A DNA stretch of 64,000 nt. Origin: Prosthecobacter sp. SYSU 5D2. GTDB taxonomy: Bacteria; Verrucomicrobiota; Verrucomicrobiia; Verrucomicrobiales; Verrucomicrobiaceae. A model generated the notes under the pieces. That model saw only the letters and a program-made list of their open reading frames with translations. It searched no databases and was not told where the DNA came from. Location of the stretch: the NCBI RefSeq assembly GCF_039655865.1, contig NZ_JBBYXL010000002.1, positions 434,001-498,000 on the forward strand, given 5' to 3'. A program made the translations under genes and the position numbers. Of this stretch, positions 1,393-55,996 are shown piece by piece. The first letter of the stretch is position 1. Each line of letters starts with the position of its first letter.

Positions 1393-1395
1393 GAA

Positions 1396-1521
1396 ATGAC
1401 GAATGACGAATGACGAATGATGAATGACGAATTCAATCCGAATGATTAAGCCCACCCCTTCTCATCTCGACGTCCGTTCCATGCCTGCCATTCGTCATTC
1501 TGCATTCGTCATTCGTCATTT
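1396..1521. repeat. facing heptamer arrays (GACGAAT / ATTCGTC)
   Basis: Five tandem units of GACGAAT (one reads GATGAAT) run from 1396 to 1433. The reverse-complement array ATTCGTC lies at 1490-1520, separated by about 56 bases. The two arrays could pair into a long stem. The right array is inside the cytochrome c reading frame. Bases 1491-1520 are an exact 30-base inverted match to 11428-11457, and about 25 bases match 39393-39418. Confidence 0.85.
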
Positions 1522-3619
1522 GTTTTTTGCTTTCGCCCTGCTGCATCTGGCCTCTTCCCCTTCATCCGCCCACCCTCTCCAGGCGGAGCCGATCAACCAC
1601 GCGTACGTCTTTCCCTTCGACCAGTATAATCTGCCGGAGGATCCCGATGAGCACGTGGTGGAAGGTGGATATCTTTTGTTAGGCGAGCTGAACTGCACGG
1701 CCTGCCATGCGCCGCCCCAGTCCTGGGCGGAGAGGCTGGCGGCCAAACCGGGGCCGAACCTGGCCGGTGTGGGCTCACGGCTGGATGCGGACACGCTCTG
1801 GCTCATGATCCGCAGTCCTCAGCATCGCAAAAAGGGCACCCAGATGCCCGGCCTGTTTGCCGGGGAGGAAGGCGATGCAGAGAAGGTAGAAGCGTTGACG
1901 GAATATCTGGGCAGCTTGAAACAGGAGGTGAAGAAAATGCCCGCCGGAGACATCGCGCGCGGCAAGGAGCTTTATCATAAAGTCGGCTGTGTGGCCTGTC
2001 ATGAGCCCGCCACCGACTACCGCCCGGCCAAGGCCGCCGCGGATGCGGAGATTGAGAAACCCGGCCTTGGCTCCGTGCCCATCGCTTTGGCCGATGCTTA
2101 TGACGTGAATGCGCTGGCGCAGTTCCTCCAGGATCCGCTTTCCCACCGGCCTTCCGGTCGCATGCCGGACATGCGCCTGAGCGCCCAGGAGGCGGCGGAC
2201 ATAGCCGCGTATCTGCACATCGGCCGGGAGGCGGAATTGGCCACGGAACGGGCCGCGCTGAAGATCCCCGCCCAGGGCATCGAGAAGGGCCGGGAGGTCT
2301 TCGCCCAGATGAACTGCGCCGCCTGCCACACGCTGCCAGCCCCAGCGGATGCGCCGTCCGGAGTGGTCCCGGCGAAAGCTGCCAAGACCCTCGTTTCCCT
2401 GAATCCAGCCGTGGGCTGCCTGGCTGAAACGCAGCCCAGCGGCATCCCGCGCTACGACCTGAATGACCTGCAAAAACGGGCCATCCGCCTGGCGCTTGCC
2501 GCCATCCAGAAACAGGATGCGCCGAAGCAGACGCCGGAGCAAAAGGTGGACTGGCAGATGACGCGCCTCAATTGTTATTCCTGCCATGACCGCGATGGCA
2601 AGGGCGGGCCGGAAGATCCCCGCGCGCAGTATTTCACCTCCAACGATGGCAGTGCTGAATCCCTCGGCGAGTTGGCTCACCTCCCACCGAATCTGGACAA
2701 CGTCGGCCGCAAACTCACGGCCAACTGGCTGCGCAAAGTGCTGTATGGCAAAGGCGGCAGCGTGCGCCCTTACATGGATACCCGCATGCCGAATTTTGGC
2801 CGCGCACAAACGGAGATGCTCGTCGGCCTGCTGCCGAAGGCGGATAAACGCGAGACACCGATGGAGATTGATGTCAGCGGTCTGGGCAAACATCACCGGG
2901 CGGAAATTGGCCGCCAGCTCATGGGCTCCACCGGCCTGGCCTGCATCGCCTGTCATGGCTTAAAAGATCGCAAGTCCCTCGGACCTCCAGTCATCCGCCT
3001 GGATCACACCGTGGCGCGCTTGCAGCCGGAGTATTTCAAAGAGCTGCTTCTCAATCCCCAGGCCACCCAGCAGGGCACCATGATGCCACCGATGTTCATG
3101 GGCCGGAAGAAGGCGGACCAGGAGATCGAATCCCTGTGGACCTACCTCAAGGAACTGGAAGGCCAGCCGCTACCGGAAGGGTTGCTGTCCACAGAGGACT
3201 TCGAGCTGAAACCGGAGAAGGAAAAGCGTCCCATCATCTTCCGCAGCTTCATTGAAGGGGCCGGTAGCCATGCCATCGCCGTCGGTTTTCCTGAAGGAGT
3301 TCACGCCACCTTTGACGCCGCCCAGGTGCGTTTCACCCAGGTCTGGCGTGGCCGCTTCCTGGATGCGATGAGCAACTGGCAGAGCCGCGAGATGCTGCCT
3401 ATCAAACCCCTTGGCACCGACCTCAAGGAGCTGCCGCCGGCCACAGGCGAACGGGTGTTTTCCGGCTACCGTCTGGACAAGGCGGGCGTGCCCACCTTCC
3501 TGTATCAGCAGGACGGAAAGGCTGTGGAGGAAACCCTGCGTCCGGCGAAGGACGGCAAGAACTTTGAACGCGAAATGAAGATGAACGGTGAGATCACCAA
3601 GGAGGTCCTGTCATGGTAA
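1481..3619 (+). CDS. secreted multi-haem cytochrome c (five CXXCH)
   Basis: With the ATG at 1481 the product is 712 residues, with a hydrophobic N-terminal segment (LFFAFALLHLASS) as Sec signal. In-frame ATGs at 1424 and 1442 exist, but they would put about 20 polar residues ahead of the signal. Five c-type haem motifs are visible: CTACH (near residue 72), CVACH, CAACH, CYSCH and CIACH. The C-terminal 200 residues lack haem motifs. Proteins of this build are common in Planctomycetes and Verrucomicrobia as periplasmic electron acceptors for sugar or alcohol oxidation. The next gene overlaps the stop codon and encodes a beta-propeller, so the two are probably translationally coupled partners. 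Part of the signal peptide (IRHSAFVIRH) is encoded by the heptamer repeat, which is odd. Confidence 0.85.
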   Translation: MPAIRHSAFVIRHLFFAFALLHLASSPSSAHPLQAEPINHAYVFPFDQYNLPEDPDEHVVEGGYLLLGELNCTACHAPPQSWAERLAAKPGPNLAGVGSRLDADTLWLMIRSPQHRKKGTQMPGLFAGEEGDAEKVEALTEYLGSLKQEVKKMPAGDIARGKELYHKVGCVACHEPATDYRPAKAAADAEIEKPGLGSVPIALADAYDVNALAQFLQDPLSHRPSGRMPDMRLSAQEAADIAAYLHIGREAELATERAALKIPAQGIEKGREVFAQMNCAACHTLPAPADAPSGVVPAKAAKTLVSLNPAVGCLAETQPSGIPRYDLNDLQKRAIRLALAAIQKQDAPKQTPEQKVDWQMTRLNCYSCHDRDGKGGPEDPRAQYFTSNDGSAESLGELAHLPPNLDNVGRKLTANWLRKVLYGKGGSVRPYMDTRMPNFGRAQTEMLVGLLPKADKRETPMEIDVSGLGKHHRAEIGRQLMGSTGLACIACHGLKDRKSLGPPVIRLDHTVARLQPEYFKELLLNPQATQQGTMMPPMFMGRKKADQEIESLWTYLKELEGQPLPEGLLSTEDFELKPEKEKRPIIFRSFIEGAGSHAIAVGFPEGVHATFDAAQVRFTQVWRGRFLDAMSNWQSREMLPIKPLGTDLKELPPATGERVFSGYRLDKAGVPTFLYQQDGKAVEETLRPAKDGKNFEREMKMNGEITKEVLSW

Positions 3620-11421: not shown

Positions 11422-11427
11422 GGGGGG

Positions 11428-11457
11428 AATGACGAATGACGAATGCAGAATGACGAA
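11428..11457. repeat. heptamer array of the GACGAAT family
   Basis: Thirty bases exactly matching the reverse complement of 1491-1520. It lies immediately before the U32 start codon, in what would be its leader. No facing partner array is seen nearby, unlike the pairs at 1396-1521 and 39294-39418. Confidence 0.85.
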
Positions 11458-11494
11458 GGATTTCGCGGAGCGGGGCCTGCGGAGGGGGGGAAAT

Positions 11495-31963: not shown

Positions 31964-32045
31964 GGGGTGGAGAAATCCTCGTGGCTGCTAATCGTGTGGT
32001 GTATTTGAGATTGAAGTCAATTCTGGAAGCCTTCATCGTGTGGCG

Positions 32046-33599
32046 ATGATGAGAGCTTTTCACCTCTGCACTGCCCTGCTTGCCAATGCGGTGCTCGTTC
32101 TCGGAGCGATGGCATCGGGCGAAAAAAGTGGGGCAACTCCTATCTGCCTGACGGCAAACGACCTGTCCATTGCGACAGGCCAGCCCTCGCTGAAACTCAT
32201 GGCCGGCGGCTCCGTGCAGATCCCCATTTGGTCCTTGTCAGGAGGCACTGCAGGGCAGTCGGTTGCGGGCCTTGTGGCCGGTCTTCCCGGCGATTGCGCC
32301 GCTGTGAAGGTGGAGATCGTGGTGATAAACACAGAGACGCCGGCGGAGCCCGGGTTGGAGGATGTTTACCGGGTTCATCTCACGCAGATGGTGGAGGATG
32401 CACCCTTCACTACCCGTTACTATCTGGGCACCCCCGTGCGAACCCGGCTTCCCGCCACTCGATTTTGCACCCGGACCATCGTTTTGGAGTCCTGCTACGA
32501 GACAGTCCCGAATGCGCCTCTGTGGATTCGTATCCAGCGCGAACCTGGGGATCCTGCCGACACGTTCACTAGGCCCACGGGCCTGGCTGCGGTCAAAGTG
32601 ACACCCTTGGATGCCCCGCAGAAGCCACAGGTGGTGCAAGATACGAAAGGCTACAACTCGTGGCCGATGATGCAGGCCATCGGGGACAAGCTGGTCTGCG
32701 TGTACAGCCGGGGTCAAGGACACACGGTCGGTGAAGACGCCCGCGCCGTTTACTCCCGAACATCCGTGGACGGTGGAAAAACCTGGACGGCCGAAACTGT
32801 GGTCGCCAACACGCCACATTACGGTGAGGTCCCGGTCGGCAAGGGGCTGGACTCCTCCGGGCAGATGTTGCTCTGGATACGCCGTGTCGGGAAGGAATGG
32901 CAGCACGATCTTTACCGCAGTACGGATGGAGTGAAGTTCGTCCTTGTGGCGACGCCTCCACTTCCCGTGAAGCCGGTACAGATCACCGATATCTTTGAGG
33001 TTCCCACCGTCGGACTCATGGCTTTGTGGTTTGGCGGAAGCTACAAGGAAGAGGAAGGTCACTCCTGGGGCACACTGACCAGCCGCGACAACGGTGCCAC
33101 CTGGCACCAGATCACCATCGAGTCCGATCTGCTCAAAGCGCAGTGGCCCACCGAGCCTGCCGCCGTATATCTCGGTGATGGAAAAATTCTTGCCATTGCG
33201 CGGACAGAACTGGCCGTCAATACCACGGAGCGGGCGCAATTCCAGATGGTGTCCACCGATTATGGCGCAACCTGGACACGTCATCGAACCAACATTGGCG
33301 ATGTGACCAACTCCACTCCCAGCCTCATCCTTGATGCCGGGACAGGCTTGCTGAGCAACTATTATTATCAGCGCGGCAAAGGCGCCCTTCGTCGCCGGGT
33401 GGTTGACGCTGGCCGCATCTTCAACAGTCCGCTTCGCTGGCCTGCTTCAGAAGTTGTGGCTGAAGGCAGCCAGGTTAAGTTTGATGCCGGTAATGTGAAC
33501 GCCACCGCGATCAAGGGCACCCACTACCTCTCATTCTACTCCGGCAAAGCTCCGGATACTGCGGTCCTGGTCTCGGAACTTCCGGCCCCCAGCCATTAA
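32046..33599 (+). CDS. secreted exo-sialidase-like (BNR/Asp-box) protein
   Basis: From ATG 32046 the product is 517 residues with a signal peptide (LCTALLANAVLVLGAMA). A beta-sandwich-like N-terminal part of about 200 residues precedes a sialidase-like six-bladed propeller with three Asp boxes: SVDGGKTWT, SRDNGATWH and STDYGATWT. A catalytic Arg triad and Tyr/Glu pair of true sialidases cannot be assigned with confidence, so it may be a sialidase, a related glycosidase or a non-catalytic binding propeller. It stands alone; the downstream gap carries a dispersed 24-base repeat. Confidence 0.75.
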   Translation: MMRAFHLCTALLANAVLVLGAMASGEKSGATPICLTANDLSIATGQPSLKLMAGGSVQIPIWSLSGGTAGQSVAGLVAGLPGDCAAVKVEIVVINTETPAEPGLEDVYRVHLTQMVEDAPFTTRYYLGTPVRTRLPATRFCTRTIVLESCYETVPNAPLWIRIQREPGDPADTFTRPTGLAAVKVTPLDAPQKPQVVQDTKGYNSWPMMQAIGDKLVCVYSRGQGHTVGEDARAVYSRTSVDGGKTWTAETVVANTPHYGEVPVGKGLDSSGQMLLWIRRVGKEWQHDLYRSTDGVKFVLVATPPLPVKPVQITDIFEVPTVGLMALWFGGSYKEEEGHSWGTLTSRDNGATWHQITIESDLLKAQWPTEPAAVYLGDGKILAIARTELAVNTTERAQFQMVSTDYGATWTRHRTNIGDVTNSTPSLILDAGTGLLSNYYYQRGKGALRRRVVDAGRIFNSPLRWPASEVVAEGSQVKFDAGNVNATAIKGTHYLSFYSGKAPDTAVLVSELPAPSH

Positions 33600-33640: not shown

Positions 33641-33664
33641 GTAGCTGCGCTCGCCAGAGCGTGG
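33641..33664. repeat. dispersed 24-base repeat, intergenic copy
   Basis: GTAGCTGCGCTCGCCAGAGC plus GTGG. The same 24 bases occur exactly at 41122-41145 and with two changes at 41089-41112, both inside the HyuAB gene. Contains the small palindrome GCTC...GAGC. Confidence 0.85.
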
Positions 33665-33677
33665 GGTTTGCCGCCCT

Positions 33678-34415
33678 TCACGCCTCCATCCCCAGCTTCC
33701 CCAGCACCCCCTTCAGCTCCTCCGGCAGCGGGGCTTCCACCTGCAGGTGCTGGCCGCTGGCGGGGTGTTTCATCGTCAGCCGCTGCGCATGCAGAAACAG
33801 CCGTTTCAATCCCAGGTCTTTTTTTAACTTCCGGTTCAGCTCGAAGTGGCCATAGACGTCATCGCCTAACAAATGATGCTGGCGGGAAGAGGCCTGCACG
33901 CGGATCTGGTGGGTCTTGCCGGTGATGAGGTCCAGCCTGACCAGGGAGACCCGCTCGCCAGCGTGGTGCGCCAATGTTTGGAAATCCAGCTCGGCATTGG
34001 GCGGACGGCCTTTCACCACCCCTGTGCGCACCCGGCCCTTTTCGCGGGAGGTGGCCAGGTGGTCCAGCCATGTGCCTTCTTTGCCGGGATTTCCCCGCAG
34101 CAGGGCCAGGTATTCTTTCTGTACGGCATCCTCCTCAAACATGGTCCGGCACTTCATGGCGGTCTTTTCATCCAGCGCCCCCAGCAGCACGCCGGAGGTG
34201 TCCTGATCCAGGCGGTGGATCAGCCACACCTTGCCGCCGGGTCCGTCGAAGCACTGGTTTTCCAGGTCATAGCGGCCTTCAAAAGCGGCCTTCTCCGTGC
34301 CCCGGTTCGTGTTCGGGTGGGAGAGCACGCCGGCCGGTTTGTTCACGATCACGACAAAACGGTCGCGGTGTAAAACGGGACAGGTGGTCAGGGCGGGCGT
34401 CTCAGCCGGAGTCAT
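33678..34415 (-). CDS. RluA/RluD family 23S rRNA pseudouridine synthase-like protein
   Basis: The 245-residue protein has the RluA-type core with the catalytic aspartate in HRLDQDTSG (D70), the preceding VVIVNKPAGVLSHP strand, QKEYLAL, the LITGKTHQIRVQ motif and LHAQRLTMKHP near the end. It lacks the N-terminal S4 domain of RluD, so it is closer in build to RluA/RluC-like or TruC enzymes, and the target base is unknown. It overlaps the stop of the acyltransferase gene by four bases, so the two are probably co-transcribed from the right. Confidence 0.9.
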   Translation of the reverse strand: MTPAETPALTTCPVLHRDRFVVIVNKPAGVLSHPNTNRGTEKAAFEGRYDLENQCFDGPGGKVWLIHRLDQDTSGVLLGALDEKTAMKCRTMFEEDAVQKEYLALLRGNPGKEGTWLDHLATSREKGRVRTGVVKGRPPNAELDFQTLAHHAGERVSLVRLDLITGKTHQIRVQASSRQHHLLGDDVYGHFELNRKLKKDLGLKRLFLHAQRLTMKHPASGQHLQVEAPLPEELKGVLGKLGMEA

Positions 34416-39293: not shown

Positions 39294-39418
39294 AATGACG
39301 AATGACGAATTCCGAATTTCAAACCATCAGAAAAAATCCTCCTTGCACGTAGGATCATTCGTCTTCAGCATTCGTTCCGCACCTGGCGGGATCATTCGTC
39401 ATTCTGCATTCGTCATTT
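39294..39418. repeat. facing heptamer arrays (GACGAAT family), second pair
   Basis: Left array 39294-39317 (units GACGAAT, one TCCGAAT), right arrays 39356-39376 and 39393-39418 (ATTCGTC units). The right-most array overlaps the last 20 bases of the HyuAB gene and matches 1489-1513 over 25 bases. Confidence 0.85.
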
Positions 39419-42400
39419 CCCTTCCCCACCCGCCGCCGCCGGGAGTCTCCAGCCGCACGCGGTCGCCGTTTTCCACGGGGAAGCTGGTGCTGGAGGGGAG
39501 GGTGGAGCTGATGCCGTCCCGGATGAGAAATTGGTTTCCGCTAGCGCCCTCGCTGCCGCCATTGAGGCCGTAGGGGGCGGACAGGCGATGCTGGGTGAGG
39601 AGGGAGACGGTGAGGGGGGCGAGGAATTCAAACTCCCGCACGATGCCGTTTCCACCCGGCCAGCGGCCCGTGCCGCCGGAACCGGGGCGGATGGAAAACT
39701 GCCGCAGGCGCACGGGATAGCGCTGCTCGATGATCTCGGGATCGGTGATGGCGGTGTTGGTCATGTGGCTGTGCAGGGCGTCACTGCCAGCATAACCCGG
39801 ACCCGCCCCGGTACCGCCGGCGATGGTCTCATAATAACCGAAGCGGTCGTTGCCGAACAAAAAGTTGTTCATCGTTCCCTGGCTGCAGGCCTGGAGCTTG
39901 AAGGCGAGCAGGAGGGTGTCCACGAGGCGCTGGCTCACCTCCACATTGCCGCCGACGACGGCCGGGTCCTGGGCGGCATCGCCGGTGAAGACGGGATTCA
40001 GCAGGCTGCCTTCCGGCAGGATCATTTCCACCGGCTCCAGCAGGCCTTCATTCAGCGGCAGGTCTTCCTGGAGCAGCAGCCGCAGGGCATACAGCACCGC
40101 GCTGTTCACGATGGCGCGGGTGGCATTGAGGTTGCGCGGATGCACTGCGGCGGTGCCGGTGAAATCCAGGCGCAGGCGGTCCGGGGCCGGGTGGCTCACC
40201 TGCACACGGAGCACGGATCCATCATCCAGATGCTGCTCTGCGAGGCCGTCATGGATGCTGGGGATCTGCCGCCGCATGACGCTGGCGCTGTGGGCCAGGA
40301 TGGCCTGGAGACAGTCGCGCAGACCTTGAGAATCCCCGCCTGCCAGGGCTCGGAAACGTTCCACGCCCAGGAGATTGGCGGCGAGCTGGGCATGAAGATC
40401 CGCCACATTGTCCGCCAGATTCCGCGTTGGATACAGTGAGGTTTCCAGCAGCGAGGCGACGTTTTCAAAACAGGATTCTCCCGCCTGCACGAGGTGCTGC
40501 GGGGCGATGACGACGCCCTCTTCCACCAGCCTGGCCGCCGTGGCGGGCATGGAGCCGGGCGTGATGCCGCCGATCTCGGCATGGTGCGCCCGGTTGGCCA
40601 CAAAACCCAGGAGGCCCGCTGCCTCATCAAACACGGGCGTGATGAGCGTGACATCCGGCAGGTGCGATCCGCCAAAGGCCGGGTGGTTGGTGATGAGCGT
40701 ATCTCCCGGCTTGAGGTCAAACCCGCGCGTGGCCTCCCGCACACATACACCCAGCGCCCCAAGGTGGACGGGAATGTGCGGGGCGCTGGAGATGAGATGT
40801 CCGCTGGCATCCAGCAGCGCACAGGAAAAGTCCAGCCGCTCGCGGATGTTGGTAGAGATGGCGGTCCGGCACAGCAGCGCGCCCATGTCCGTGACGATGC
40901 TGTGGAGGCGGTGGCGGACGAGATCGCGCTGCGTGGAGAAGGACGGGCTGTCCTGGCCTGGCTGCTTCGCCATGAGCGTTTCCTCATTCCGCCGCAGCCG
41001 GTGTCCCCATCCCGCATGGTGTTCCACCTCCCACCCCTCGTTCACCACCAGCGTGCTGAAAGCATCCTGGATCAGCCGCACCCCTGATGTAGCCGCGCTC
41101 GCAAGAGCGTGGGCCTCCGCCGTAGCTGCGCTCGCCAGAGCGTGGTCGTCCGCCGCGCCTGAGCCCGCCGCCACCACGACCCTCAAACTCACCAGCTCCA
41201 CCACGCGCTGCTCCGGCGGAGCATATCCAAAAAGACGTTCATAAGCCGCACGATACGCTTGGGGCAGCTCGCTACCTTTTTCAAAAGCCACTTGCACGGG
41301 TGTGTCCTGTCCGCGCAGCCGCAGCTCGGCCAGGCAGGACGCCACATGCGTTTCACGGCCTGTGGCCAGACCTTCACCACTCAGGGCAAGTGCCGCCTCC
41401 ACCACCAGGTTTTGAACCCATTCATCCACTTCCCCGATACAATCCCCCAAAGCCAGGAGCACCTGCTTTTCCGCAAACCTTTCCGGCACGGCCTGATGCA
41501 GCCCCACGGCGCTGAGGATGCCTGCGTGCTCCGGGGCCAGGACGGTTTTCATGCCCAGGCGTTCCGCCACGGCGCAGGCATGCTGCGGCCCTGCTCCACC
41601 GAAGGCCAGCAGGGCATAGTCTGCCGGGTCATAGCCCTCCGCCACAGAGATGCGGCGGATGGCATCCGCCATGTGCTCAATGGCCAGGTTCAGGCAGGCT
41701 TGCAGGAGATCTGTTTCACTTGAAAAACCACTGCCCGCTGCCAGCAGCTCTTGCAGCCGGGCACGGGCGGCCGCCGCATCCAGCGGGATCGGCGCGCGCG
41801 CCGGGTCAAAGCGGCCTAACAAAAGATTCACATCCGTGATGGTCAGCGGTCCGCCACGGCCGTAACAGGCGGGTCCGGGATCTGACCCGGCACTCTCCGG
41901 CCCCACGGCCAGGCCATGCGGTGTCCACTGGCAGATGGACCCGCCGCCGGCGGCGACGGTCTCGATGGCCACGCAGGGGGCGAGCAACTGCATGCCGGCC
42001 ACGTTTTGGCTGAAGCGGTAACCCGGCCGGCCGTCAATGCGCGCCACATCCGTACTGGTGCCGCCCATGTCCAGCGTGAGGATGCGGTCATGGCCCAGGG
42101 CCGCCGCTGCATTGGCCGCGCCCAGGGCACCGCCTGCGGGACCGCTGAGCAGCAGGTCCTTGGGCCGGATGCTGGCGGCCGTCTCCAGCCCGCCGGCGGA
42201 GTTCAGCACCAGCAGGGAGATTTTTTCCTGGCCGCCTATGGCTGCGGTCAATGGACCTGCCACGCCCTGGATGAAGGCTTCCACCGGGCCGGTCAGATAC
42301 GCATTGGCCACGGCACTCTGGGCGCGAGGCAGGATCTTGGCAAAAGGGGCGATGTCGCTGGAAACGGACACATGCGTAAAGCCTGCCTGCATGAGCAGCG

Positions 42401-43184
42401 CCGCCACGCGCTGCTCATGCTGCGGGTGGGCATAGCTGTGCAGCAGCGCCACGGCGGCATGGCGCAGGCCCTTGGCCACCAGGCCCGCGGCCTGCGCTTT
42501 CACGGCCTGTTCATCCAAAGGCAAAAGGACCTGCCCGTCCGCAGCGATGCGCTCCGGTACCTCGGCCACGGCCGCACAAAACACCGGCCTGGCCTCATGC
42601 TTCAACGCGAAAAGGTCCGCCCGCCGCTGGTCGCCGATTTTCAAGAGGTCTCCAAAGCCTGCCGTGATGAAAAAGGCGGTCGCCGAGCCCTTCCTTTCCA
42701 GCAGGGCATTCGTGGCTCGCGTCGTCGCCAGCCGCAGCTCCAGCGGAGGGAAGGGGCGGCCTAACGGAGTGTGTGTTAAAAGCCTGGCCGCGAGAACCGG
42801 TGCCTCCTCGCCGGTGCCCAGGTCTATGAGAAACGGGGGCGACAGGCGGTGTCCGGTTTTCGGTGTTCGGTGTTCGGTTTTCAGAATGCAGCCTTGCGGT
42901 GTCCACTGAACGCCGGTGACGGTGAACTGAAGACTGGCTGCTGAAGACTGAACACTGGATACCGGAGACTGACCACCGATGACCGTGCCCTGAAAGCCGG
43001 TGTAAAAGGCCTCGTCCATCCTGGGCAGGCCCTCCACCTGCCACTGGCCGGGGGACGGGCAGGCGGTGACGCGCACGCGGAGCACGCCGGTGGAGAGGAC
43101 CTTGCAGCGGGTTTCCCGGCCTTGCGGATCCAGGGCAAAGGCATCCGTAAAGGTGCCTCCGGTATCCGTTGAGATGCGCCACAT
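39399..43184 (-). CDS. hydantoinase/5-oxoprolinase fusion (HyuA-HyuB)
   Basis: The 1261-residue protein joins an HyuA-type ATPase subunit (STDTGGTFTDAF start, TTRATNALLERKG, LTLDMGGTSTDVA, and the ASKHA-like motifs to about 720) to an HyuB-type subunit from about residue 745 (QRDLVRHRLHSIV, TNIRERLDFS, then TNHPAFGGSHLPDV and GGTGAGPGYAGSDALHSHMTNT). The fused order is that of ATP-dependent 5-oxoprolinase, so hydrolysis of 5-oxoproline or a hydantoin is expected. It has odd repeats: residues about 70-115 come from facing heptamer arrays, the linker (ADDHALASAATAEAHALASA) from two copies of a 24-base repeat, and the last residues MTNAE with the stop from another heptamer array. It starts 4 bases after the TPR gene. 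Confidence 0.88.
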   Translation of the reverse strand: MWRISTDTGGTFTDAFALDPQGRETRCKVLSTGVLRVRVTACPSPGQWQVEGLPRMDEAFYTGFQGTVIGGQSPVSSVQSSAASLQFTVTGVQWTPQGCILKTEHRTPKTGHRLSPPFLIDLGTGEEAPVLAARLLTHTPLGRPFPPLELRLATTRATNALLERKGSATAFFITAGFGDLLKIGDQRRADLFALKHEARPVFCAAVAEVPERIAADGQVLLPLDEQAVKAQAAGLVAKGLRHAAVALLHSYAHPQHEQRVAALLMQAGFTHVSVSSDIAPFAKILPRAQSAVANAYLTGPVEAFIQGVAGPLTAAIGGQEKISLLVLNSAGGLETAASIRPKDLLLSGPAGGALGAANAAAALGHDRILTLDMGGTSTDVARIDGRPGYRFSQNVAGMQLLAPCVAIETVAAGGGSICQWTPHGLAVGPESAGSDPGPACYGRGGPLTITDVNLLLGRFDPARAPIPLDAAAARARLQELLAAGSGFSSETDLLQACLNLAIEHMADAIRRISVAEGYDPADYALLAFGGAGPQHACAVAERLGMKTVLAPEHAGILSAVGLHQAVPERFAEKQVLLALGDCIGEVDEWVQNLVVEAALALSGEGLATGRETHVASCLAELRLRGQDTPVQVAFEKGSELPQAYRAAYERLFGYAPPEQRVVELVSLRVVVAAGSGAADDHALASAATAEAHALASAATSGVRLIQDAFSTLVVNEGWEVEHHAGWGHRLRRNEETLMAKQPGQDSPSFSTQRDLVRHRLHSIVTDMGALLCRTAISTNIRERLDFSCALLDASGHLISSAPHIPVHLGALGVCVREATRGFDLKPGDTLITNHPAFGGSHLPDVTLITPVFDEAAGLLGFVANRAHHAEIGGITPGSMPATAARLVEEGVVIAPQHLVQAGESCFENVASLLETSLYPTRNLADNVADLHAQLAANLLGVERFRALAGGDSQGLRDCLQAILAHSASVMRRQIPSIHDGLAEQHLDDGSVLRVQVSHPAPDRLRLDFTGTAAVHPRNLNATRAIVNSAVLYALRLLLQEDLPLNEGLLEPVEMILPEGSLLNPVFTGDAAQDPAVVGGNVEVSQRLVDTLLLAFKLQACSQGTMNNFLFGNDRFGYYETIAGGTGAGPGYAGSDALHSHMTNTAITDPEIIEQRYPVRLRQFSIRPGSGGTGRWPGGNGIVREFEFLAPLTVSLLTQHRLSAPYGLNGGSEGASGNQFLIRDGISSTLPSSTSFPVENGDRVRLETPGGGGWGREMTNAE
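41089..41145. repeat. two copies of the dispersed 24-base repeat inside HyuAB
   Basis: Copies at 41089-41112 and 41122-41145, nine bases apart. On the coding strand they give the tandem peptides DDHALASAAT and EAHALASAAT between the HyuA and HyuB parts. Spacing keeps the frame open. Confidence 0.85.
42848..42988. repeat. facing heptamer arrays (GGTGTTC / ACTGAAG) inside HyuAB
   Basis: Left array 42848-42889 in units GGTGTCC, GGTTTTC, GGTGTTC (twice), GGTTTTC, AGAATGC. Right array from 42905 in about twelve 7-base units such as ACTGAAC, ACTGAAG, GCTGAAG, ACTGGAT, ACCGGAG. The left units read as GAACACC on the other strand, so the arrays face each other and can form a stem. The frame of the host gene is open throughout. 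Confidence 0.85.
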
Positions 43185-48136: not shown

Positions 48137-48727
48137 ATGGCAGAAGACACAACAACTCCGGCAGCCGCTCCTGAAGCAGCCACCCCAGAAGCCACTCCGG
48201 CTCCCGCACCCGCACCTGCAGCCGCTGGTGCTCCAGCAGCATCAGGCGCTCCTGCTGCCCCTGGCGCAGACAAGCTGCCTACCAGCGGTGACCGCGCCGT
48301 TTCCCAGAGTATCTGGGCCGAAATCGGTGGTGGCGATGGCCCTGAGGCTACGAAAATCATCAAGGCCAAAGGTTCGAAGAACGTCTCCGCAGGGATCGTT
48401 CACGTCCGCTCCACCTTCAATAACACGATGGTTTCCATCACCGACCGTGGCGGCAACCTGATGGGTTGGTCCACCTCCGGTAAAATGGGCTTCCGCGGTT
48501 CCCGTAAAGGCACAGCCTACGCGGCCCAGGTCGTCGCCCAGGATGCCTGCCGTCAGGCCATGAGCCACGGCCTCCGTGAAGTGGAAGTGCGCCTTCGCGG
48601 CCCCGGCTCCGGCCGTGAGTCCGCTGTCCGTGCCATCCAGGCCATGGGTGTGGAAGTCACCGTCATCAAAGACGCGACTCCGATCCCCCACAACGGCTGC
48701 CGTCCGCCGAAAGCCCGTCGCGTCTAA
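48137..48727 (+). CDS. rpsK: 30S ribosomal protein S11 with long Ala/Pro N-terminal extension
   Basis: The last 125 residues (from VSAGIVHVRSTFNNTMVSITD) are a normal S11, ending IPHNGCRPPKARRV. In front of it are about 66 extra residues, low-complexity Ala/Pro/Glu/Thr (PAAAPEAATPEATPAPAPAP) and then a short mixed part (TSGDRAVSQSIWAEIGGGDG). No ATG, GTG or TTG codon lies in frame between the first ATG and the S11 core, so the extension appears to be part of the protein. S11 forms the 30S platform near the mRNA exit; such an extension would protrude to the outside. Confidence 0.93.
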   Translation: MAEDTTTPAAAPEAATPEATPAPAPAPAAAGAPAASGAPAAPGADKLPTSGDRAVSQSIWAEIGGGDGPEATKIIKAKGSKNVSAGIVHVRSTFNNTMVSITDRGGNLMGWSTSGKMGFRGSRKGTAYAAQVVAQDACRQAMSHGLREVEVRLRGPGSGRESAVRAIQAMGVEVTVIKDATPIPHNGCRPPKARRV

Positions 48728-54643: not shown

Positions 54644-55996
54644 ATGATCAAAGTCGGTCTCGTTTCCCTCGGCTGCGCCAAGAACCTCATTGACTCCGAA
54701 ATCATGGTCGGCCACCTCCAGCAGGCAGGCATGACCATGACCCCGGAGGCAGATCTTGCCGATGTCCTCATCATCAATACCTGCTCCTTCATTGACATGG
54801 CCAAAAAGGAAAGCGTCGGCGCGGTCCACGAGGCTGTCGATGCGCGGGAGGAAGCGCCACAGCGCAAACGCCAGAAGATCATCGTCGCCGGCTGCCTGTC
54901 CCAGCGCTTTGCGCAGGAACTGCCCGGCCTCATGCCGGAAGTAGATGCCTTCATTGGCCTGGACCAGATCACCCAGGTCGCCCCCATCATCCAGCGCCTC
55001 ATGGGCAGCGAGGATGGCCAGGAAAACCACGTCACCCGCCAGCCGAAGTACATCCCGGATTACGATACCCCGCGCTTCCGCCTCACTCCGAAGCACTTCG
55101 CCTACATCAAGATTGCCGAAGGCTGCAACCACACCTGCTCCTTTTGCATCATCCCGCGCATCCGCGGCCGCCATCGCAGCCGCACCCAGGAAAGCGTCGT
55201 CAAAGAAGCCCGCCAGCTCATCGAAAGTGGCGTCAAAGAAATCAATCTCATTTCCCAGGACACCACCTACTTCGGCATGGATCTTTGGGAAGGCGAGCGG
55301 CCCAAACCGCGCAGCGAGGTGGACTCCACCAAAGGCGATTCCCTCTCCACCCTCATCCGCGAGATCAACGCCATCCCCGGCGACTTCTGGATCCGCCTGC
55401 TTTACACGCATCCCGCGCACTGGAGCGACGACCTCATTTCCGCCATCGCTGAAAGCCCCAAAGTGGCCCGTTACATTGACATGCCTCTGCAGCACATCAG
55501 CGACAACATGCTGACGCTGATGAAGCGCGAAACCGATGGCGCCTATATCCGCAACCTGATCCGGCGCATTCGTGCCGGCATCCCCGGCATCGCCATCCGC
55601 ACCACCTTCATCGTCGGCTTCCCCGGCGAGACCGAGGCCGATTTCAATGAGCTGGTCCAGTTCATTGAGGATGAAAAATTCGAGCGCGCTGGCGTCTTTA
55701 ATTACTCCCGTGAAGAGGACACCCGCGCCGCCAAAATGGAAGGCCAGATCCATCACATGACTCGTAAAGCCCGCTGGAACGAAGCCATGCGCGCCATCCA
55801 GCGCAGCGTCGAGCACGTCAACCGCGAGCAGGTCGGCAAAACCCTCCGAGTCCTCATCGAAGAACCCGGCGTTGCCCGCAGCGAGATGGACGCTCCCGAT
55901 ATCGACACCACCGTCTTCGTGGACAAGTCCCTCCCCATCGGCAGCTTCGCCGACGTCACCATTAAAGACTGGCGCGGGTATGATCTGGTGGCCTGA
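54644..55996 (+). CDS. rimO: ribosomal protein S12 methylthiotransferase RimO
   Basis: Radical-SAM enzyme that methylthiolates an aspartate of ribosomal protein S12. From ATG 54644 (450 residues) the UPF0004 domain has its cluster cysteines C11, C47 and C84, the radical-SAM motif is CNHTCSFC (C161, C165, C168) near GRHRSR, and a TRAM domain closes the protein (LRVLIEEPG to DVTIKDWRGYDL). The frame runs open upstream to 54377, but that part overlaps the divergent gene. The N-terminal GCAKNLIDSEIMVG is typical of RimO as opposed to MiaB. Confidence 0.95.
   Translation: MIKVGLVSLGCAKNLIDSEIMVGHLQQAGMTMTPEADLADVLIINTCSFIDMAKKESVGAVHEAVDAREEAPQRKRQKIIVAGCLSQRFAQELPGLMPEVDAFIGLDQITQVAPIIQRLMGSEDGQENHVTRQPKYIPDYDTPRFRLTPKHFAYIKIAEGCNHTCSFCIIPRIRGRHRSRTQESVVKEARQLIESGVKEINLISQDTTYFGMDLWEGERPKPRSEVDSTKGDSLSTLIREINAIPGDFWIRLLYTHPAHWSDDLISAIAESPKVARYIDMPLQHISDNMLTLMKRETDGAYIRNLIRRIRAGIPGIAIRTTFIVGFPGETEADFNELVQFIEDEKFERAGVFNYSREEDTRAAKMEGQIHHMTRKARWNEAMRAIQRSVEHVNREQVGKTLRVLIEEPGVARSEMDAPDIDTTVFVDKSLPIGSFADVTIKDWRGYDLVA

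Follow-up and report, generated by a model that had tools for sequence, protein, structure and literature searches.

Three families of dispersed short repeats within an open hydantoinase A/B fusion gene of Prosthecobacter sp. SYSU 5D2

The DNA analysed here (the window) is a 64,000-nucleotide stretch of the Prosthecobacter sp. SYSU 5D2 genome (contig NZ_JBBYXL010000002.1, positions 434,001 to 498,000), and it carries a hydantoinase A / hydantoinase B (oxoprolinase) fusion, HyuAB, on a single open reading frame (ORF). Since Pfam places Hydant_A_N (residues 150-265), Hydantoinase_A (287-565), and Hydantoinase_B (754-1255) on one ORF, we read it as an A-B fusion. The top solved-structure matches are N-methylhydantoinase (7hk5) and 5-oxoprolinase (6yra), and the nearest named relatives, by title, come from Prosthecobacter and other Verrucomicrobiaceae (73% identity for locus L031). 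The gene hosts a facing pair of heptamer arrays with the unit CAGTnTT, two copies of a 24-mer that we class below as a repetitive extragenic palindrome (REP) of type A, and one arm of a facing heptamer pair with the unit ATTCGTC. In what follows, C marks contigs of this genome, G marks genomes (G000 being this one), and L marks loci; model confidence is given as the predicted local distance difference test score (pLDDT). The features of the gene, in window coordinates, are:

39399..43184, minus strand: HyuAB fusion ORF and repeat host, 1261 amino acids, open throughout (Pfam, dN/dS).
42926..42985, minus strand: 5' arm (gene sense) of the CAGTnTT facing pair, encoding residues ~67-87, ..GGQSPVSSVQSSAASLQ..; pLDDT <50 at 72-83.
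42883..42925, minus strand: spacer between the CAGTnTT arms, predicted to be a beta hairpin with strands 86-95 and 98-103.
42847..42882, minus strand: 3' arm of the CAGTnTT facing pair, encoding residues ~101-113, LKTEHRTPKTGHR; the sole in-frame TGA position reads CGA.
41089..41155, plus strand: two tandem 33-bp units (REP type A plus 9 nt); the opposite strand encodes the linker HALASAAT-AEA-HALASAAT, residues 681-699.
41122..41145, plus strand: exact REP type A, GTAGCTGCGCTCGCCAGAGCGTGG (sequence search).
41089..41112, plus strand: REP type A with 2 mismatches (sequence search).
39390..39421, minus strand: ATTCGTC heptamer arm over the HyuAB 3' end, supplying MTNAE and the TGA stop.
39294..39318, plus strand: facing GACGAAT partner of the 39390-39421 arm, downstream of the ORF (heptamer scans).

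The ratio of nonsynonymous to synonymous substitution rates (dN/dS), calculated against four relatives, is ~0.1-0.2 for the whole gene, 0.08-0.18 for the A and B parts, and 0.14-0.31 for residues 1-66, with high dS in these comparisons. By this measure, HyuAB is under purifying selection and is not decaying. The AlphaFold model of residues 1-720 has a mean pLDDT of 85 and falls below 50 in three stretches, namely 72-83 (the left heptamer arm), 677-700 (the REP linker), and the repeat-free 431-440. An earlier note, written from the letters alone, had described one gene invaded by three repeat types and suggested that they are tolerated at domain borders and termini. Its ORF and all of its coordinates hold, each family is dispersed in the genome, and the repeats lie at a predicted loop, in the linker between the A and B parts, and at the C-terminus, with two of the three low-pLDDT stretches being repeats. 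The facing pair that it had placed at about residues 70-115, the array that gives the last codons MTNAE and the stop, and the frame open across all repeats (1261 codons without a stop) are likewise borne out. Taken together, we consider it very probable that HyuAB is a working enzyme gene that took up three dispersed short-repeat families where the protein tolerates extra residues. The prediction of the spacer as a beta hairpin suggests that it is probably ancestral host sequence trapped between the arms. We also noticed that 17 of 18 nucleotides are common to 42891-42908 in this spacer and 41913-41930 in the same gene (QWTPQG and QWTPHG).

The heptamers are over-represented throughout the sequence scanned. 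A lag scan of 1.62 Mb returned 27 arrays at lag 7 compared with 0 to 3 at lags 4, 5, 8, 10, 11, and 13 (lag 14 and multiples of 3 were likewise raised), and first-order random sequence of the length of contig C2 gave none at lag 7. A consensus scan, covering 2.13 of the 5.87 Mb, found 41 CAGTnTT and 21 ATTCGTC hits (62 in total; 2 + 1 = 3 in the reversed sequence). After merging, these make 48 loci, 13 of them facing pairs. The order of the arms is fixed within each family: CAGTnTT stands first in 7/7 pairs and GACGAAT first in 6/6 (two-sided binomial 0.016 and 0.031, respectively). Seven facing pairs were folded as RNA and gave z-scores from -2.1 to -7.3, HyuAB being the weakest; the four intragenic pairs scored -2.1, -5.6, -3.8, and -6.6. 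When a locus was called intragenic if it had an open frame and a coding score on both sides, eight of the 48 qualified and 40 did not. The tandem 7-bp units are over-represented and mainly intergenic, as are bacterial heptameric simple sequence repeats. The eight are in HyuAB, UvrA (C2), a double UvrA of 1950 amino acids (C10), an LpxL-heptosyltransferase (GT9) fusion (C13), IspG (C1, one arm), one PSCyt-PSD1 protein (C7, two loci), and a weak case at C2:419547. Four of the seven CAGTnTT facing pairs are intragenic compared with none of the six ATTCGTC pairs, one of which straddles the HyuAB end. Some arrays were found by the lag-7 scan only and missed by the consensus scan, such as the one in RtcR (C2:78958), which is not counted. 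On contig C8, a 156-bp array at 55698-55853 (L344), mostly of GCTCCCT units, runs into ATTCGTC units and lies beside a CAGTCTT array.

Since 7 cannot be divided by 3, a heptamer array gives the same cycle of seven codons whichever frame of a strand is read. This cycle is stop-free on the CAGTnTT strand and contains one TGA per 21 nt on the AAnACTG strand. Five intragenic arms are read on the latter strand, and there TGA occupies 0/7 in-frame units versus 15/19 out-of-frame units (Fisher 0.0005), with the 0/7 being partly a matter of choice that weakens the contrast, for only open ORFs were counted; outside genes, TGA occurs in 80 of 136 units. The intragenic arms are open since their critical unit is GGA, CGA, or TGG, and on the evidence of these codons the unit change (TGA to GGA, CGA, or TGG) shows the exact alteration that would keep each copy readable. 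With an open frame, coding flanks, and this TGA pattern, the repeat-encoded peptides, which in HyuAB include TEHRTPK and HALASAAT, may be translated.

To place these repeats among the relatives of HyuAB, we compared 109 relative loci, one of which (the partial L028) was excluded from the alignment and the site lengths, leaving 108. No heptamer array was found within the gene at the same thresholds in any of the 109 loci, and the two REP-like matches (≤5 mismatches) in them both lie outside the gene. Site 1, the heptamer pair, has 56 residues and is the longest of 109, the five closest relatives having 51, 37, 49, 32, and 53. Site 2, the A/B linker, has 41 residues and exceeds the 31-37 of every one of the 29 genus-level relatives; relative to the five closest, it has gained a net 7-9. 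Site 3, the tail, has 16 residues within a range of 3-30 among the relatives.

The same heptamers also stand in frame in other conserved genes. In IspG, the stretch between the same anchors is 126 nt versus 99 in G019 (91% identity) and G018 (88%), adding nine amino acids, and the heptamer peptide is absent from 29/29 aligned relatives. The UvrA insert, whose repeat-encoded segments include SLQSSVSSLQTK and LNTENWK, is shared with G018 (84%), where the right arm has three more heptamers (seven residues) and the whole is 12 nt longer; in G019 (88%), an apparent eroded left arm and spacer are seen by eye, without a right arm. The search near the UvrA zinc module covered 31 loci, and the UvrA alignment has n=29, in which L240 lacks residues at the site and L251, L252, and L256 are the paralogue. 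The double UvrA has 54 residues at its site versus 21 in G021 and G017. In G015, this paralogue (L252) has 47 residues at the same loop, with a different facing heptamer kind, CAAGTTT/AACTTTG, and in G017 (L256) the linker that joins its two UvrA halves carries a further kind, CAGTGCT facing units that resemble AGCACTG. For LpxL-GT9, 13 genomes give matches that are interrupted at 473-477 and start again at 505-518 (in G019 the match ends at 476 and restarts at 513, with 36 nt between), and 17 other genomes match unbroken, for example G018 with 16 and G022 with 20 fewer residues. The PSCyt1-PSCyt2-PSD1 protein (C7:90457-93444, L346) contains two heptamer stretches, and another array follows ~30 nt past its end.

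The second component of HyuAB, the 24-mer, is, from its layout and distribution, a GTAG-type REP. It reads GTAG-CYG-CGCTC-loop-GAGCG-TGG, thus opening with a 5' GTAG followed by a short palindrome; the stem is kept in most copies, and one copy has the compensated stem CCCTC/GAGGG, changed on both sides. Eighteen copies with ≤3 mismatches occur in the 5.87-Mb genome (none in the reversed control), four places being exact, and in the window, 100 shuffles gave 0 matches. The copies are dispersed, largely intergenic and close to the 3' ends of genes: nine of the 18 begin ≤12 nt from a coding-ORF stop or supply the stop through their own TAG. A second REP, type B, with the stem CCTGC/GCAGG, has eight copies (≤3 mismatches), seven of which face type A within 131 nt, so that type A/type B pairs have the closely spaced inverted arrangement of a REPIN (a REP doublet forming a hairpin). 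The HyuAB linker pair is a direct repeat and not a REPIN. Its two 33-bp units are 88% alike, and by this likeness the linker 24-mers are one 33-bp tandem duplication rather than two separate arrivals. With 18 type A and eight type B copies, the family does not reach the abundance that is usual, though not defining, for GTAG REPs, which generally exceed 100 copies per genome (PMC2817692).

These results bear on two further claims of the earlier note. It had seen two dispersed 24-mers in the linker; the 24-mer is dispersed and its copies encode residues 681-699, but what lies in the linker is one unit duplicated in tandem. It had also inferred, from an exact copy in the non-coding gap at 33641-33664, which we confirm, that the 24-mer is mobile or converting between coding and non-coding DNA. 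The 24-mer is a dispersed REP of 18 copies, and long-tract conversion finds no support: the idea that the copies at 33641 and 41122 exchanged more than the 24-mer was rejected, as their flanks share only the 24-mer by eye. In the flanks of type A copies that were inspected, nothing common was seen by eye beyond the 24-mer, except for the downstream second REP in some, as a dispersed REP would lead one to expect. Target-site duplication was rejected as a rule of REP entry, with only two of the 18 copies (L118 and L128) having flanking duplications of 29-34 bp, which tandem duplication fits equally. At L118 (C7:225623, minus strand), the REP is flanked by a 34-bp imperfect duplication, and its TAG is the stop of a DUF4130-domain gene.

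Among 56 genomes, type A REPs are present in ten, with 25 copies in G047, 16 in this genome, and one or two in each of the other eight, and this patchy distribution is perhaps due to carriage between lineages. In G047, which belongs to another family, some copies form pairs 114 nt apart; same-genus genomes otherwise have 0-2. No gene for a REP-associated tyrosine transposase (RAYT) flanked by the same REP, the arrangement of a RAYT-mobilised element, was found in the flanks covered (up to 1.5 kb in this genome). The best Y1 transposase gene, C8:101467 (L129), lies amid long blocks of a different GTAG-like repeat.

The same REP stands in an HSP70 gene (C9:68411-70279, minus strand; L177, L128) in the same frame as in HyuAB, so that HALASAAT is encoded in both, a match that could be chance, for about five of the six REP frames are open. 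The insert reads MPDSSPILGLDLGTK-EHALASAAT-EGSPILGIDLGTTNS and adds 22 residues in total, with the first strand (SPILGLDLGT) duplicated on either side of the REP (29 bp aligned). It was not seen in 21 relatives, including G019 at 89% identity (24 relative loci, three of which had no motif match and were not read). Translation of this gene may also start at a TTG within the REP, with AAGGA upstream. In-frame inserts that are absent from orthologues, in the manner of the Rickettsia palindromic elements (RPEs), are thus present in HSP70, IspG, the double UvrA, and LpxL-GT9, and for HyuAB in the linker only and within the genus only.

Elsewhere in the window, the same families recur as follows:

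33641..33664, plus strand: exact REP type A in a non-coding gap (L112); the stop of 33678-34415 (minus strand, reading toward the REP) lies 13 nt away and that of ORF 32040-33599 41 nt away.
11427..11460, plus strand: single GAATGAC array, of the same kind as ATTCGTC (heptamer scans).
1395..1533, no strand: second facing ATTCGTC pair, lying between genes or at the start of one; 1391-1531 folds as RNA with z -7.3.

The window also contains about three copies of an 18-bp tandem repeat at 48211-48267.

Building on what is observed (dispersed families, presence in frame, absence of the repeats from the relatives compared, and an in-frame difference in unit number), we propose that a single REP arrived in frame in the A/B linker and that the 33-bp tandem duplication later made two copies of it. 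The facing CAGTnTT arrays would flank a beta hairpin that was already present in a loop of the N-terminal domain, and the facing ATTCGTC pair straddles the end of the gene and provides its stop codon. Insertions that shifted the reading frame or put a stop into it would be purged by selection, leaving repeats that are in frame and confined to loops, linkers, and termini. The REPs may have spread as single-strand hairpins through a Y1 (RAYT-like) transposase acting from elsewhere. For the heptamer arms, one possibility is slippage combined with template switching in a hairpin, and the other is a hairpin element that moves.

Several results weigh against this picture. For the REPs, none of the ten Y1_Tnp places of this genome has a type A REP in its flanks (up to 1.5 kb), and in the G047 draft, with 17 Y1 places, Y1 and type A REP are never on the same contig. 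The RNA fold of the linker REP pair is no better than that of shuffles (z -0.3), and a search by structure only, for GTAGCYG with a stem of 5 bp, returned 22 hits versus six in reversed sequence; structure-only counting was dropped as unspecific, and all REP counts given here are from sequence searches. For the heptamers, most loci are unpaired (13/48 paired), an inverted partner lies within 200 nt for 11 of 30 lag-scan arrays, the intragenic call at C2:419547 is weak, and about three chance hits are expected among the 62. The inserts of the PSCyt gene are not shown to be absent from relatives. As for HyuAB itself, the nearest relative is ~75% identical, site 1 is also long (49, 51, and 53 residues) in three repeat-free sister species, the linker has at least 41 residues in 51 of 108 relatives, the more distant ones, and the length of the tail is ordinary, 25 of 108 relatives having one at least as long. 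Therefore, the linker is the only part of HyuAB for which the data show that residues were cleanly gained, and this at the genus level only. An insertion limited to the lineage at exactly three places, which the earlier note had named as support for recent entry, accordingly holds for the repeat DNA and for the linker length within the genus, but not for the lengths at sites 1 and 3.

Among the alternatives, the one that survives best concerns the heptamers within the proposed scheme: the facing pair would not have been inserted, and a slippage array with a template-switched mirror copy would have trapped host sequence. Spacers differ between copies, which favours such a local origin, the HyuAB spacer is predicted as a beta hairpin resembling those of relatives, and the UvrA spacer is, by eye, partly recognisable in G019, which has no right arm. 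However, switching from either side should yield both arm orders, whereas the order is fixed (7/7 and 6/6), favouring a defined element. We regard local template switching as a real possibility that falls somewhat short of probable. A bolder reading, which we put forward tentatively, as a proposal slightly more apt to fail than to hold, is that the facing heptamers of this order form a class of their own among short hairpin elements. CAGTnTT, ATTCGTC, CAGTGCT, and CAAGTTT would share the unit length of 7, with arm order fixed in the two kinds that can be counted. CAGTnTT would repeatedly enter protein loops in frame, and UvrA would have been struck independently in different species by different kinds, once at the same loop. 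The arrays would then grow or shrink by three units (seven codons) and erode to ordinary linker, serving as a continuing source of new loops.

Ordinary low-complexity coding sequence, in which loops rich in Ser, Gln, Thr, and Asn resemble heptamers through local slippage only, would account for the varying lengths of the three HyuAB sites among relatives and for the long site 1 of other sequence in sister species. We consider it quite unlikely, because identical units of two kinds occur in fixed facing order in non-coding DNA genome-wide, the REP is exact at four places, and the reversed-sequence controls are near zero. The presence of three repeat loci within one gene might suggest a decaying pseudogene gathering repeats, yet the 1261 stop-free codons, motifs common to 19/19 aligned relatives, and the low dN/dS in both the A and B parts and the first 66 residues make this very improbable. 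The least credible alternative is an assembly artefact or contamination in this draft genome of 26 contigs, as the copies are spread over many contigs, the UvrA insert is at the same place in the separate assembly G018, and completeness and contamination are 99.98% and 0.41%.

RPEs are single sequence elements, whereas each heptamer arm here is a tandem array of imperfect units, and one such array has three units more in one species than in another. The two are alike in being palindromic repeats in frame in unrelated protein genes (PMC3733652). GTAG REPs, as described in the same paper, supply stops through their TAG, have their most numerous in-frame intragenic copies in Opitutus terrae, a verrucomicrobium, have struck uvrA genes, and can occur as two inserts in one ORF, the authors suggesting linkers or loops (PMC3733652). 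The REPs reported here resemble them in the GTAG and palindrome, the location near 3' ends, the TAG stop, and the in-frame copies, and differ in their few copies (18) and in being accompanied by two kinds of heptamer array in the same gene. REPINs likewise consist of two facing REPs forming a hairpin and have tandem copies with flanks (PMC3116915), but no linked RAYT was found here.

Heptamers within genes also have precedents. The Beggiatoaceae TAACTGA repeats are 7-bp direct repeats, mostly intergenic, with some in ORFs on the stop-free strand, and the authors expect that they could be tolerated where modular subunits meet or at termini (PMC4679880). In the accessible text, they have one kind of unit, lie mostly upstream of start codons, and include only one inverted case, whereas 13 of the 48 loci here are facing pairs, with both arms in open frame in four genes. 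The GGGAATC repeats of Xanthomonas and Nostoc are over-represented heptamers as well, some inverted and variable between close species, but are of the G-quadruplex type and studied mainly between genes (PMC4692102). Borg tandem repeats are similar in giving disordered segments from tandem repeats in ORFs, but belong to extrachromosomal archaeal elements, are perfect amino-acid repeats, and show no facing arms in the portion of the paper available to us (PMC9879509). We found no report in the open-licence papers searched of facing heptamer pairs with both arms in open frame that recur in UvrA loops. In-frame REPs and RPEs and heptamers in ORFs are already known, and the facing intragenic heptamer form looks like a little-described variant.

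What these results offer is a set of examples in which loops of conserved bacterial proteins derive from dispersed non-coding repeats, the sister sites being shorter or empty. They include entry in IspG (not in 29 relatives), an in-frame difference in unit number in UvrA (G000 versus G018), and apparent erosion in UvrA of G019, so that the gain of linkers by proteins becomes traceable species by species. Facing heptamer arrays join REPs and RPEs as intragenic elements, and UvrA is again among the targets.

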